Shown in pieces: positions 35,714 through 44,042 of a stretch of DNA of 64,000 bases. Both the position numbers and the translations under genes were made by a program. Origin of the DNA: Candidatus Rokuibacteriota bacterium (GTDB lineage: Bacteria > Methylomirabilota > Methylomirabilia > Rokubacteriales > CSP1-6); NCBI GenBank assembly GCA_030647435.1, contig JAUSJX010000056.1, positions 1 through 64,000 on the forward strand. The letters are read 5' to 3'. Each line of letters begins with the position of its first letter. Position 1 is the stretch's first letter. A model generated the notes under the pieces. It was not told the DNA's origin. It saw nothing but the letters and a program-made list of their open reading frames with translations, and searched no databases.

Positions 35714-35902
35714 TCAGGCCTTCTTGTCGTCGTCCTTTTTCTGCGTCGACGACGTGTCGTCCTTGAGCTCGGTGACGCCCTTCTTGAACTCCTTGACGCT
35801 CGAGCCCAGGGAGCGGGCGAGATCAGGCAGACGCTGTGCGCCGAAGAGAATGAGGACGATGACGAGGATGAGCAGCAGCTCCTGATAGCCCAGACCAAAC
35901 AT
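35714..35902 (-). CDS. tatA: Sec-independent (Tat) translocase protein TatA
   Basis: 62 residues from the ATG at 35902, behind GGAG. One N-terminal helix ([20 protein letters not shown]), the conserved FG hinge, an amphipathic helix ([21 protein letters not shown]) and an Asp/Lys-rich tail. It forms the Tat pore for folded, cofactor-bearing proteins. TatB and TatC are not in the window. It is 67 nt downstream of selB with its own predicted promoter. Confidence 0.96.
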
Positions 35903-35969: not shown

Positions 35970-37877
35970 TCAGCCGCGCAGTATGCGGTGCTCGCCCTGG
36001 CGCACGGTTACGCGCTGGGAGTCGAAGTACTCCATGAGCGGGATGGCGTACTTCCGGCTGACGCCCAGGAGGTCCTTGACGTCCGCGGGGCCGATCTCCT
36101 TCTTCTCCTTGAGGTGGGCCACGACCTTGTCCTGGATCTCCACGAGCGCCGCCGCGTGAAAGAAGAGGGACTCCTTGACGCGCAGGAGCCGCCGGTCGGC
36201 GACGAGCAGCTGGAAGAGCTCATGCTTCTCCGTGCCCTTGACCCCCAGACGGCCGAGCGCCTCCTCGGGGTTGGGCGGCGCGGCGCCCGCGGACCGAAAA
36301 ATCCCCTCGAGCCCATCGACAACGCGCTGCTGCTCGGGAGTGAGGCGGATCCCGTGGGAGGCCAGGCGCACCTGGTCCCGCTCGCTCCGGACGGCGCCGT
36401 CGGCCTCGAGCGCGGCCAGCAGCTGGGCGAAGATCTTCTCCTGCGCATGACCCGCGCGGCTTCGGAGCTCCTCCCGGGAGATTCCCCCGCGCAGCGGGTT
36501 CTGGCGGTGGAAGACCTCGAGGAGCGCCAGGGTCTGGGAGCGGAGGCGGTCGCTCGCCTCGCGGTGCACGTACCACTCGCGGTCGACGGCCGTCACCGCC
36601 TGGGCCTGCTGGAGCTCCTCGAGCAGCGCGCGGAGGCGCTCGGGGCCGAAGGGGGTGCGGGCGCGCAGGTCGGCGGCGCGGAGCCCCGCCGCCCCAGCCT
36701 GGCGCAGGTGCTCCTCGACGACCTGGGCCGGCGCCGCCGTTTCGAGGAGGCGCAGGTGGTCGGCGAGCGCGCCGCCTTTTCGTCTGAAGCGCGGCGGAGC
36801 GATGTCGAGCACGGTGCCGCCGCCGATGGTGACGATGGGCGAGTAGGAGCGGATGACGTAGCGGTCGCCGGGCAGCGCGCAGACGGGCGCCTCGAGACGG
36901 AAGCGGCCGTATGTCACGTCACCGGGCGCGATCTCTTGCCTGTCCACGAGCAGCACGCGCGCCATCACCTCGTGGGTGCCGACGTGGAAGCGCACGCGGT
37001 CCCGCGCCTTGAGCGGCCGCGGGGCCTCGGCCAGGAGCTCGAGCGTGGCGTCGAGCAGAAGGGTCGGCATGAGCGCGCCCGGCGGCGCGATGACATCCCC
37101 GCGCTCGACGGCCGCGCGCTCGACGCCCTGGAGATTGACGGCGGTGCGCTGCCCAGCCTGCGCGGTTGGGACGGTGCGGCTGTGGACCTGCAGCCCGCGC
37201 ACCTTGGTCTGGACCGCCCTGGGAAAGACCTCGACCCTGTCATCCACGGCGAGCCGTCCGGCCATCAGCGTGCCGGTGACCACGGTGCCGAAGCCCTTGA
37301 CGGTGAAGACCCGGTCGACCGGAAGGCGCGCCGTCTGGTCGGTGGGCCGCCCCGGCACCTCGGCGGCCAGCCGCGCCAGCGTCCGGCGCAGCTCGGGCAG
37401 CCCCTGCCCCGTTTTCACCGACACGGGCACGATGGGGCAGCCCGCCAGGAAGGTGCGTGCGAGCAGCCGCGCGACATCATCCTTGACCAGCTCGACCCAG
37501 TCGGGCTCCGCGAGGTCGGTCTTGGTCAGGGCGACCATGCCCGACTTGATGCGCAGGAGCTGACAGATCGCGAGGTGCTCCCGCGTTTGCGGCATCACGC
37601 CCTCGTCGGCGGCGATGACGAGAAGCGCCAGGTCGATACCCCCCACGCCCGCCAGCATGTTCTTGACGAAGCGCTCGTGGCCGGGCACGTCGACGATCTC
37701 GATGGTCAAGCCGCCGGGCTCCTCGAGGAACGCGAAGCCAAGGTCGATGGTGATGCCACGCGCTTTCTCCTCCGGCAGCCGGTCGGTGTCGGTGCCGGTC
37801 AGCGCCTTGACGAGCGAGGTCTTGCCGTGATCAATGTGCCCCGCGGTCCCGGCTACGACGTGCTTCGCCGCTGTCAC
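35970..37877 (-). CDS. selB: Selenocysteine-specific translation elongation factor SelB
   Basis: 635 residues, close to the usual length. EF-Tu-like GTPase domain with [13 protein letters not shown], the switch [19 protein letters not shown] and TKTD (about 8-135). It is followed by beta-barrel domains and C-terminal winged helices (about 380-635) that read the SECIS hairpin. It delivers Sec-tRNA(Sec) to in-frame UGA codons. The ATG overlaps the selA stop (ATGA). Confidence 0.98.
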
Positions 37878-39268
37878 AGGCTGCTGAGGGCTCGGACCAG
37901 CGCCGGTATGTCCGAGGGGAGGATCGTGCGGAAGTCCAGCAGGAGCCGGTCGTCGAGCACGCGGCCGAGAACGGGCGGCTGCCCCATGCGCAAGCGCTCA
38001 TCGAGAGCCTGCGCGGGGCACTCGGGAGTGCCGAGCGCCACGGCCGCCGTCGGCAGCTCCACCGTCGGCAGCGCGCCGCCGCCGACCTGGGAGGTCGCCT
38101 CCACGAGCGCCAGGCCGAGACGCGCATGGGTCTCCGGCGGAAGGCGACGCAGGAGCCCGCGGGCCCGGCGCCGGATCGCCGCCTGCGCCTCGGTCAGCAT
38201 GCGGAGCGTGGGGATGGTCTCGAGCGCGTCGCCCGCTTCGTACGCGTAGAGCGTCGCTTCGAGCGCCGCCACGGTGAACTTGTCGATCCTGAGCGCGCGG
38301 TTGAGCGGGTTCTGCGCCAGGCGGCCGACCAGCCCGGCCGTGCCGACGACGATGCCGGCCTGCGGTCCGCCGAGCAACTTGTCTCCCGAGAAGGACACGA
38401 GGTCCACGCCCGACGCCACGACCTCGGGCACGGTTGGCTCGTAGGGGAAGCCGAAGCGACGGAGGTCTATGAAGCAGCCGGAGCCCAGGTCCTCCATGAC
38501 AGGCACGCCCCGCTCCCGTCCAAGGTCGGCAAGCTCGCGCGAGGACACGGCGGCGGTGAAGCCGACGACGCGATAGTTGGACGTGTGGACCTTGAGCAGG
38601 AGCCCGGTCTCGGGCCCGATCGCCTGCGCGTAATCCTTGAGGTGCGTGCGGTTGGTCGTGCCGACCTCCCGCAGCGTCGCGCCCGAGCGGCGCATGATGT
38701 CGGGGATGCGGAATTCGCCGCCGATCTCGATCAGCTCCCCGCGCGAGACGATGACCTCCTTGCCGCGCGCGAGGCTTTCGAGCGCGAGCAGGACCGCCGA
38801 GGCACAGTTGTTGACCACGAGCGAAGATTGGGCGCCTGTCAGACGCTGGAGGAGGGCGTCCACGTGAGCGTAGCGCGAGCCGCGCTCCTTGCGGTTCACA
38901 TCCATCTCGAGGTTGGAGTAGGCTCCGGCCACGATCTGGAGCCGCTCGCGCGCCAGCGGCGAGAGCAGGGCGCGGCCGAGGTTCGTATGGAGTACTACCC
39001 CCGTGGCGTTGACGACGCGGGCCAGGGAGAAGGCGCCGCCCTGCGAGAGCCGGGCTACGACGCGCTCGGCCAATGCCTCGGCCGCGGCCGCCGCGGGCGC
39101 GCCCTCGAGCACGCGCCGCCGCTCGGCGGCGAGCACGTCGCGCGCAGCCTCGGTCAGGCGCCGGCGCGTGATGCCGGCGAGCGCGGCATGGCCTTCCACG
39201 CGGGTGACGAGGGCGTCCACCCCCGGGAGCGCGCGCAGGAGCGTCTTCGCTTTATCCTCCGGCGGCAA
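37874..39268 (-). CDS. selA: L-seryl-tRNA(Sec) selenium transferase SelA
   Basis: 464 residues from a TTG at 39268 behind GGAG. A PLP enzyme that converts Ser-tRNA(Sec) to Sec-tRNA(Sec). The PLP lysine lies in SFSGDKLLGGPQAG near residue 295. NATGVVLHTNLGRALLS and YSNLEMDVNRKERGSRY are the family's conserved segments. The start lies inside the 3' end of the 95-residue upstream gene, so translation is likely coupled. SelD, the selenophosphate source, is not in the window. Confidence 0.97.
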   Translation of the reverse strand: MPPEDKAKTLLRALPGVDALVTRVEGHAALAGITRRRLTEAARDVLAAERRRVLEGAPAAAAAEALAERVVARLSQGGAFSLARVVNATGVVLHTNLGRALLSPLARERLQIVAGAYSNLEMDVNRKERGSRYAHVDALLQRLTGAQSSLVVNNCASAVLLALESLARGKEVIVSRGELIEIGGEFRIPDIMRRSGATLREVGTTNRTHLKDYAQAIGPETGLLLKVHTSNYRVVGFTAAVSSRELADLGRERGVPVMEDLGSGCFIDLRRFGFPYEPTVPEVVASGVDLVSFSGDKLLGGPQAGIVVGTAGLVGRLAQNPLNRALRIDKFTVAALEATLYAYEAGDALETIPTLRMLTEAQAAIRRRARGLLRRLPPETHARLGLALVEATSQVGGGALPTVELPTAAVALGTPECPAQALDERLRMGQPPVLGRVLDDRLLLDFRTILPSDIPALVRALSSL

Positions 39269-39539
39269 GCTCGCTCTCCACGCGCGCGCGCACCCGGGCG
39301 ATGATCTCGCGCGCTTCGTGCCGGATCGCGTCGCCGCCCGCGCCGCGGGCGTCGGTCTGCAGCAGCCGGCGCACCGCCTCCTCCGTCAGCCCCGCCCAAA
39401 GCTCGTCGAGGTCTCGGGGCGAGAAGCCCTGGCCGCGGAGCGCGGTCGTCCACTCGCGCGCCAGCTCCTGGACGAGCCGATCTCGCTCGGTCGCGAGCCG
39501 TCGCGCGCGCTTCACCAGCTCGGGCAGCTTGGGCGGCAT
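39252..39539 (-). CDS. Small charged helical protein of unknown function in the sel cluster
   Basis: 95 residues, rich in Arg, Glu and Ala, predicted all-helical with no signal peptide, cysteine or known motif (for example FSPRDLDELWAGLTEEAV). AGGAG precedes the ATG within the 3' end of the preceding gene. Its own stop lies 17 nt inside selA. The ribosome site and both tight junctions argue that it is real and made together with SelA. I do not recognise the family. Confidence 0.7.
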   Translation of the reverse strand: MPPKLPELVKRARRLATERDRLVQELAREWTTALRGQGFSPRDLDELWAGLTEEAVRRLLQTDARGAGGDAIRHEAREIIARVRARVESELAAGG

Positions 39540-39542
39540 CCC

Positions 39543-40028
39543 CTACTCCTTGACCAAGCCCCGCACGCTGTCCACCAGGTTGGGCTCCCAGCGGGTCGTC
39601 GACACGCACCCGTAATTGGGATTCGGCCGGAGACTGCCCGGCTTGCCGAGGCGGAAGGTGCGCATCTTGCTGTTGATCTGGAGATCGGTCGTGCCGCCGT
39701 TCGGCCGCACGAAGACCGTGAACGTGACGAGCGCCTCGCCCTCGAGGGACTTGTCGCCCAGGCTGCCGCAGTCGGCGTAGACGCCGATGGGCGAGACGAT
39801 GTCGTCGGAGGCGATGACGCCGGAGTCCTTGGCGACCGCGCGCAGCGGGACGTTGTCGAAGGCCAGCGCCCGGATGAGCGCGTTCCAGGTGACATCGTAG
39901 GGCGCCGCGATCTGGTCGCGGTACGGCGGCGGCTGGAGCGGCGAGATGTAGGCCGCGCAGCCGCCCGCCATGATCCAGGCCAGGCCGGCCCACACCGCCC
40001 CGAGAAGCCGCGAGCGCCGTCCGGTCAT
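39543..40028 (-). CDS. Predicted lipoprotein of unknown function
   Basis: 161 residues. Signal peptide with lipobox AWIMAGGC (Cys24), so lipid-anchored after LspA cleavage. The mature part contains PYDVTWNALIRALAFDN and a later TFTVFVRPNG strand, similar in layout to small outer-membrane lipoproteins that start with a DVTWNAL helix. Three further cysteines are present. It is 9 nt after the DUF3105 gene and 3 nt before the 95-residue gene. Confidence 0.75.
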   Translation of the reverse strand: MTGRRSRLLGAVWAGLAWIMAGGCAAYISPLQPPPYRDQIAAPYDVTWNALIRALAFDNVPLRAVAKDSGVIASDDIVSPIGVYADCGSLGDKSLEGEALVTFTVFVRPNGGTTDLQINSKMRTFRLGKPGSLRPNPNYGCVSTTRWEPNLVDSVRGLVKE

Positions 40029-40037
40029 GGATGCATT

Positions 40038-40571
40038 CTACCGCGGGTGGTGGTCGATCCCGCGGTAGGCGGTGATGAAGCGGCGGACGCGCCTCGGGTC
40101 GAAATCGTCGAAAGCGTCGAGCCGCGTCCAGGCCGTCAGCGCGATCCGCGTCTTCATGCCGGGATAGGGGGCCAGTATGACCTGGCGCTCGTAACCCGAC
40201 ACGATGGCCGTGAGCTTGGCGACGAGGTCGGGGCAGGCGTCGGGGCAGTTGTACTGGACCATGACGCCGCCATCCTCGAGGTTGTGCACCTGGAGCTGCC
40301 TGGGGATGGGCTCGGTGTGGATGCCCCAGGGCGCGACGTACGGCAGATGCGGCCCCGAGGTCGGCGGTTCGGAATTGTAGGGCGGGATCGTTTCGTTGAG
40401 CGTCTGGATGTGTCGGTTGCCCTGGTCCGGCTGGCTCACGCCGGGCTGGGCCACCGCCGCGCGGTAGGCAAAAACGCCGGCGACGACGGCCGCGGCCGCC
40501 GCTGCGCCGCCGGCCCACAGCCAGATCCTTCTCCCGCTGCCGAGCTCCGCGGCCCGTACGCTGGCGTGCAT
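40038..40571 (-). CDS. DUF3105 family membrane-anchored protein
   Basis: 177 residues from the ATG at 40571, which has a weak GGGACG site; an ATG at 40586 would add 5 residues. One N-terminal transmembrane helix (about 17-40), then a periplasmic DUF3105 domain with PPTSGPHLPYVAPWGIH, HNLEDGGVMVQYNCPDAC and ALTAWTRLDAFD. The domain's function is unknown. It is the first protein gene after tRNA-Sec (39 nt away). Confidence 0.85.
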   Translation of the reverse strand: MHASVRAAELGSGRRIWLWAGGAAAAAAVVAGVFAYRAAVAQPGVSQPDQGNRHIQTLNETIPPYNSEPPTSGPHLPYVAPWGIHTEPIPRQLQVHNLEDGGVMVQYNCPDACPDLVAKLTAIVSGYERQVILAPYPGMKTRIALTAWTRLDAFDDFDPRRVRRFITAYRGIDHHPR

Positions 40572-40610
40572 GTCTCGCGTCCCCATGACCGAGTGTCGAA
40601 GCGTGGGTTG

Positions 40611-40708
40611 TGGCGGAAGCGTGTGGGAGTCGAACCCACCTCCGACTTGTCTAGAGCCGGACGCCGGATTTGAAGTCCGGGAGGCCCACCGGGATCCTAG
40701 ACGCTTCC
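40611..40708 (-). tRNA. selC: tRNA-Sec (anticodon UCA)
   Basis: 98 nt including an encoded CCA (40613-40611); the discriminator is G. The acceptor stem is 8 bp (GGAAGCGT with ACGCTTCC). The anticodon stem CCGGA/TCCGG holds the loop CTTCAAA with UCA complementary to UGA (40673-40671). A long variable arm follows. The extended acceptor and long extra arm are features of bacterial tRNA-Sec. It is on the same strand as, and just ahead of, the DUF3105-to-selB gene run. Confidence 0.97.
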
Positions 40709-40741
40709 GTGCGTCCAACGACGGACGATTCAAGGGTTCCG

Positions 40742-40770
40742 AGTGTACCACCCGGGTCGGGGGGCACCAA
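40742..40770 (-). promoter_or_regulatory. Predicted promoter of tRNA-Sec
   Basis: On the minus strand, TTGGTG (40770-40765), a 17-nt spacer and TACACT (40747-40742). The predicted start near 40735 is about 27 nt before the mature tRNA 5' end. The -35 is weak and partly lies in a 20-bp tandem repeat. Confidence 0.45.
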
Positions 40771-43775: not shown

Positions 43776-44042
43776 ATGAAGAAGATCATCGCGCTGGTGA
43801 TTGGTATTGCTTTCGCTTTCGGCACGGCGGGCTTCGCAGCCGCTCAGGCGCCTGCCGTGGCCCCCAAGGCCGAGGACAAGATGGACAAGAAGGCCGACGA
43901 CAAGAAGGCGGCCGCCGACAAGAAGGCGGCCGACAAGAAGGCGGCCGCCGACAAGAAGATGGGCGACAAGAAGATGGCCGACGACAAGAAGATGGGCGAC
44001 AAGAAGGCGGCCGACGACAAGAAGATGGGCGACAAGAAGTAG
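43776..44042 (+). CDS. Small secreted Lys/Asp/Ala repeat protein
   Basis: 88 residues. Signal peptide (MKKIIALVIGIAFAFG, cleavage near AAAQA-PA, about residue 25). The mature 64 residues are almost only D, K, A and M, in repeats of DKKAA(A), DKKMG and DKKMADD. There are no cysteines or known domain. The protein should be disordered and highly positively and negatively charged. A strong promoter and near-perfect Shine-Dalgarno suggest abundant product. A terminator-like hairpin follows. The role is unknown: metal, polyphosphate or anionic-polymer binding, or envelope stress, are only possibilities. Confidence 0.85.
   Translation: MKKIIALVIGIAFAFGTAGFAAAQAPAVAPKAEDKMDKKADDKKAAADKKAADKKAAADKKMGDKKMADDKKMGDKKAADDKKMGDKK

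Follow-up and report, generated by a model that had tools for sequence, protein, structure and literature searches.

A tRNA-Sec-led selenocysteine operon specific to Rokubacteriales, with an orphan gene family overlapping selA

We identified a conserved operon for selenocysteine (Sec) synthesis that begins with the gene for tRNA-Sec and carries three additional genes ahead of selA. The operon is real and old and constitutes a form of the selenocysteine operon that is specific to Rokubacteriales; as far as the searched literature shows, the arrangement is undescribed, and it includes one new orphan family, a protein of 95 residues (P95) whose gene overlaps selA. Rokubacteria are soil and groundwater bacteria, and selenocysteine is the 21st amino acid. 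To our knowledge, descriptions of selenocysteine synthesis and decoding in bacteria treat the pathway as closed, with SelA, SelB, SelC and SelD plus SerRS as its members. The DNA analysed is a stretch of 64 kb (hereafter, the window) located on contig C56 of the host genome G000 (5.8 Mb, 98% complete). The first-pass annotation had placed tRNA-Sec, a DUF3105 gene, a lipoprotein gene, P95, selA and selB in a single direction, separated by short gaps or overlaps, and we reproduced all of these coordinates. tatA, which had been overlooked, is the seventh member of the block. The features are, in the order of reading:

40742..40750, minus strand: extended -10 promoter-like box TGGTACACT, conserved, 42 nt 5' of tRNA-Sec
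40611..40708, minus strand: tRNA-Sec (selC), anticodon TCA, CCA end encoded (ARAGORN; Rfam RF01852, 71.3 bits)
40038..40586, minus strand: DUF3105 membrane-anchored protein, start at 40586 or 40571 (PF11303, 3.4e-27)
39543..40028, minus strand: lipoprotein (LIPO), lipobox-type N-terminus, predicted fold like the BamC N-domain (AF2; Foldseek)
39252..39539, minus strand: P95, orphan protein of 95 residues, predicted cytosolic three-helix protein (AF2), beside selA in 52/52 genomes
37874..39268, minus strand: selA, L-seryl-tRNA(Sec) selenium transferase, TTG start (TIGR00474, 584 bits, cut-off 267.9)
35970..37877, minus strand: selB, selenocysteine-specific elongation factor (TIGR00475, 380.6 bits, cut-off 242)
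35714..35902, minus strand: tatA/E, twin-arginine translocase subunit (PF02416, 4e-19), at the end of the conserved block

The genes are tightly packed. DUF3105 follows tRNA-Sec after 39 nt when its start is placed at 40571 and after 24 nt from the upstream ATG at 40586, which may be the actual start; across 64 loci this gap ranges from 7 to 36 nt with a median of 11. The lipoprotein gene follows DUF3105 after 9 nt and P95 follows the lipoprotein gene after 3 nt, selA overlaps P95 by 17 nt and selB overlaps selA by 4 nt. The ATG of tatA lies 67 nt after selB in the window and ~40 nt after it in most relatives, and the position of tatA that aligns with the start of the query is mostly 22-31 nt after selB in the relatives' loci. 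tatA was the next gene after selB in 39 of the 40 loci with enough flanking sequence. Two further elements were observed in the window: a TPP riboswitch at 2788-2901 on the plus strand, whose 56.1 bits barely exceed the gathering score of Rfam (54.3 bits), and a protein of 88 residues at 43776-44042 on the plus strand, in which a signal-like N-terminus is followed by lysine/aspartate-rich DKKAA/DKKMG repeats.

The same gene order with similar short spacing was found in 52 species-level genomes (about 70 loci), and the dN/dS values of DUF3105, the lipoprotein and P95 all fall far short of 1. Because order and spacing recur in so many genomes and all three genes present low dN/dS, the arrangement is not due to chance. 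The block is present in all four families of Rokubacteriales, with the lipoprotein and P95 as its variable members: the operons of two genomes (G059 and G011) are devoid of the lipoprotein, and one Rokubacteriales genome (G057) presents a sel operon without P95, in which selA has its own ATG (L120:2497). The relatives of SelA with 67-80% identity that come from named genomes are nearly all from Candidatus Rokubacteria/Methylomirabilota MAGs, and the window belongs to Rokubacteria (Methylomirabilota).

Ungapped comparison of the 90 nt located 5' of tRNA-Sec in 46 distinct Rokubacteriales loci revealed a single conserved box of the extended -10 type, TG(G/C)TA(C/A)ACT, in 42 of them. The box is found at -42 in most loci and between -20 and -52 in the others. 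The motif TGGTAMACT has one match in the entire window (0.06 expected), and in the eight long loci that were checked it was either absent or found ahead of tRNA-Sec only. Together with the 7-36-nt spacing and the overlapping or nearly touching genes, this box makes one tRNA-Sec-led transcript the simplest reading, and we infer from the sequence that the genes from tRNA-Sec to selA, selB and tatA are co-transcribed. Terminator-like sites inside DUF3105 were weak matches in coding sequence and were given no weight.

The host genome has the components expected for Sec decoding: a tRNA-Sec with a UCA anticodon, SelA and SelB above curated cut-offs, SelD, and UGA-containing selenoprotein genes. SelD (TIGR00476; G000:C98:94090-95046, L152) presents an in-frame TGA at the catalytic CAG*ASK and is predicted to contain selenocysteine in all six genomes that were read. 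The alpha subunit of formate dehydrogenase-N (FDH-N; G000:C22:51524-54631, L179) combines an in-frame TGA with the twin-arginine signal SRRDFF. An FDH-N alpha gene with an in-frame TGA was also found in G002, G033, G059 and, as a partial sequence, G035; in G033 the TGA lies in RV*HSATVP, which we take to resemble the Sec site of FDH-N. The TGA is missing from FDH-N alpha in G007, G017, G024 and the second copy of G035. One genome of the phylum was reported to encode 63 selenoprotein genes (PMC13188914). In another genome of the class (G068), ARAGORN called a tRNA-Pyl (CTA) beside a tRNA-Ser (L175:5753-5847), which may be suppressor-like or miscalled.

Five family members were found without the cluster (G002, G003, G025, G035 and G036), and a Sec-linked co-loss was considered for them. 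This was rejected: all five retain SelD with its in-frame TGA, and for three of them (G035, G002 and G003) the contig with the syntenic upstream gene stops short of the expected cluster, which indicates that its absence there reflects a gap in the assembly. The flank gene was not matched in G025 or G036. Genomes lacking Sec were not found among the Rokubacteriales, and P95 is present only together with selA.

P95 was located directly before selA, as a single copy on the same contig, in all 52 genomes that hold it, and it was found nowhere else among the 388 genomes searched. Its holders are all Rokubacteriales and belong to families f1, f3 and f4. The protein evolves under purifying selection (dN/dS of 0.03-0.27), and the invariant core residues of its alignment include L15, R19, W30, D43, L47, W48, L51, E53, R73 and L91. 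It is predicted to form a three-helix bundle (AF2, pLDDT 90); its alignment has no conserved cysteine and a signal peptide is not apparent. Neither P95 nor the lipoprotein matched any Pfam or NCBIfam family. The Foldseek search of P95 returned no match with an E-value below 1 and no homologue or fold with a functional hint, and matches to designed helical repeats in the PDB were rejected as compositional. P95 was also ruled out as a detached domain of SelA, which itself covers 454 of the 455 positions of its family model.

SelA has a single plausible in-frame start codon in 38 of 46 distinct loci, and it falls within the 3' end of P95. This start is mostly a GTG or ATG at -11, and a TTG at -17 in the genus of the window. 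Such a position of the selA start, among the final codons of P95, corresponds to the layout of translational coupling, which suggests that the two proteins may be synthesized in a coupled manner. The sel operon of G057 lacks P95, as do those genomes of the class that carry selA but fall outside Rokubacteriales, which indicates that Sec does not generally depend on P95.

The first-pass annotation had also suggested that the envelope genes could be linked to selenium, and this part of its interpretation was not supported, whereas a conserved, undescribed tRNA-Sec-led operon with an orphan family coupled to selA was upheld. The DUF3105 protein is a clear member of its family (PF11303, 95.5 bits, gathering cut-off 25), and this broad family was found in the control genome of Deinobacterium chartae, where SelA was not. 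The complete genome G066, from the same class but from a related order and not from Rokubacteriales, has its DUF3105 gene at 1.28 Mb, hundreds of kb from both selA (0.97 Mb) and tRNA-Sec (1.92 Mb). DUF3105 is missing in seven selA-bearing genomes of the class (G067, G069, G070, G074, G076, G085 and G094). Since it occurs without SelA, lies far from the sel genes and is missing in Sec genomes, DUF3105 is not a selenium gene by its distribution. A second DUF3105 subfamily is found outside the sel operon (L130-L134, L138 and L139); it does not carry the PPTSGPH motif and ends with an ordinary TGA. The possibility that DUF3105 paralogues with an in-frame TGA are selenoproteins was rejected, the TGA being a normal stop.

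The lipoprotein is encoded as a single copy, in the operon, and is present at the same place in most of the genomes that hold P95. Its predicted structure (AF2, pLDDT 86) found its best Foldseek matches in the N-domain of E. coli BamC (E-values of 7e-5 to 6e-4). Both are lipoproteins of similar predicted fold; however, the lipoprotein of the operon is composed of one short domain and shares 7-11% identity with BamC. No match to BamC/NlpB (PF06804) exceeded the gathering threshold (best E-value 0.038; 2 of 35 members). In one genus, which belongs to family f9, weak homologues were observed at a distance of 1.6-4.2 kb from selA, with moaC and other genes in between (L170:6486-7028, L171:8320-8862, L172:6889-7431 and L173:9480-10070); they share the two-cysteine pattern of the lipoprotein (hhalign probability 98.5%). 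This linkage to selA, found in a single genus, may represent remnant synteny or chance. The envelope genes are probably long-standing neighbours within the operon.

We used the genes flanking the operon as a control for linkage, with counts taken from loci with enough flanking sequence. Members of the operon were retained in 97-100% of the loci, against 0-84% for the flanks. Several flanking genes were frequently retained, namely the SLT lytic transglycosylase (27/32 loci), a ThiS/MoaD-like gene (26/34) and a mannosyltransferase (27/36), and others were not (ROK kinase, 8/36; divergent cytochrome, 0/34). The operon is bordered by SLT and ThiS/MoaD-like genes in family f2 as well, and by mannosyltransferases in f4. 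Genes unrelated to Sec are thus nearly as syntenic as the operon, which makes neighbourhood alone weak evidence of function. What is left after this control is the overlap between P95 and selA, together with the finding of P95 in Sec-bearing genomes only.

These results are best explained by a Rokubacteriales Sec operon in which P95 works with SelA and the envelope genes are retained by operon inertia, a reading to which we give about an even chance overall. Most likely, one promoter ahead of tRNA-Sec would yield a transcript composed of tRNA-Sec, DUF3105, the lipoprotein, P95, selA, selB and tatA, from which RNase processing would free the tRNA and leave a polycistronic mRNA. P95, apparently cytosolic, would then be made in translational coupling with SelA, whose gene visibly overlaps its own, and would most likely act with SelA or Ser-tRNA-Sec, for instance as a scaffold or a tRNA-handling subunit. 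DUF3105, the lipoprotein and TatA would be envelope proteins that are co-expressed with the Sec genes, probably stand outside Sec chemistry and are probably kept in place by operon inertia. The one functional connection that can be seen is indirect: the Sec-containing formate dehydrogenase bears a twin-arginine signal here. That P95 is a factor associated with SelA is plausible, at somewhat less than even odds. That it is a new dedicated Sec-synthesis subunit specific to Rokubacteriales, which would bind SelA or Ser-tRNA-Sec and raise Sec throughput, is a narrower proposal that we consider rather unlikely.

Alternatively, all the extra genes, including P95, could be unrelated to selenium and lie in a slowly rearranging stretch of the chromosome where a promoter is shared by historical accident. 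We regard this as a possibility of real weight, short of an even chance: three flanking genes are kept in 75-84% of the loci, including in further families of the order, DUF3105 has no fixed association with Sec, and either P95 or the lipoprotein can be missing while selA and selB remain. The higher retention of the operon members than of the flanks nevertheless argues against it, and both the conserved overlap of 11 or 17 nt between P95 and selA and the presence of P95 only in Sec genomes exceed what plain synteny would produce. It is improbable that DUF3105, the lipoprotein and TatA instead form an envelope module for the export or maturation of Tat-dependent selenoproteins such as FDH-N. 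The near-constant position of tatA after selB, the RRDFF Tat motif and in-frame TGA of FDH-N alpha in this genome and its relatives, and the weak homologues of the lipoprotein near selA in another family of the class are all consistent with such a module. However, G007, G017 and G024 keep the whole operon with a TGA-less FDH-N, DUF3105 and SelA each occur without the other, and TatA serves every Tat substrate. Finally, P95 might be mainly a translated leader that sets the expression of SelA through translational coupling, with the protein itself of secondary importance. The selA start embedded in the 3' end of P95 in most loci, often as GTG or TTG, would fit this scenario, but purifying selection along the protein, its confident predicted fold and the P95-independent ATG of selA in G057 make it very improbable.

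The operon resembles the selA-selB-selC operons of Proteobacteria (Zhang et al. 2006, PMC1794560) in that selA, selB and tRNA-Sec are clustered and a selenoprotein FDH is encoded in the genome. It differs from them in that tRNA-Sec comes first, DUF3105, the lipoprotein and P95 precede selA, tatA follows selB, and fdh is located on another contig in this genome. Genomic context has previously yielded YedE, YedF, LysR_Se and DUF3343 as candidates for selenium metabolism (Lin et al. 2015, PMC5322559), and none of these families was found among the Pfam matches of the operon. Like such candidates, P95 is a small protein, in the range of 80-100 residues, whose gene lies close to Sec genes, but it presents no match to DUF3343 in Pfam and no conserved cysteine.

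Gene order in Rokubacteriales is conserved well beyond functional units, and a function should not be deduced from neighbourhood alone in this order. P95, whose gene overlaps selA across one lineage, constitutes a concrete, small and expressible candidate for a lineage-specific accessory factor.
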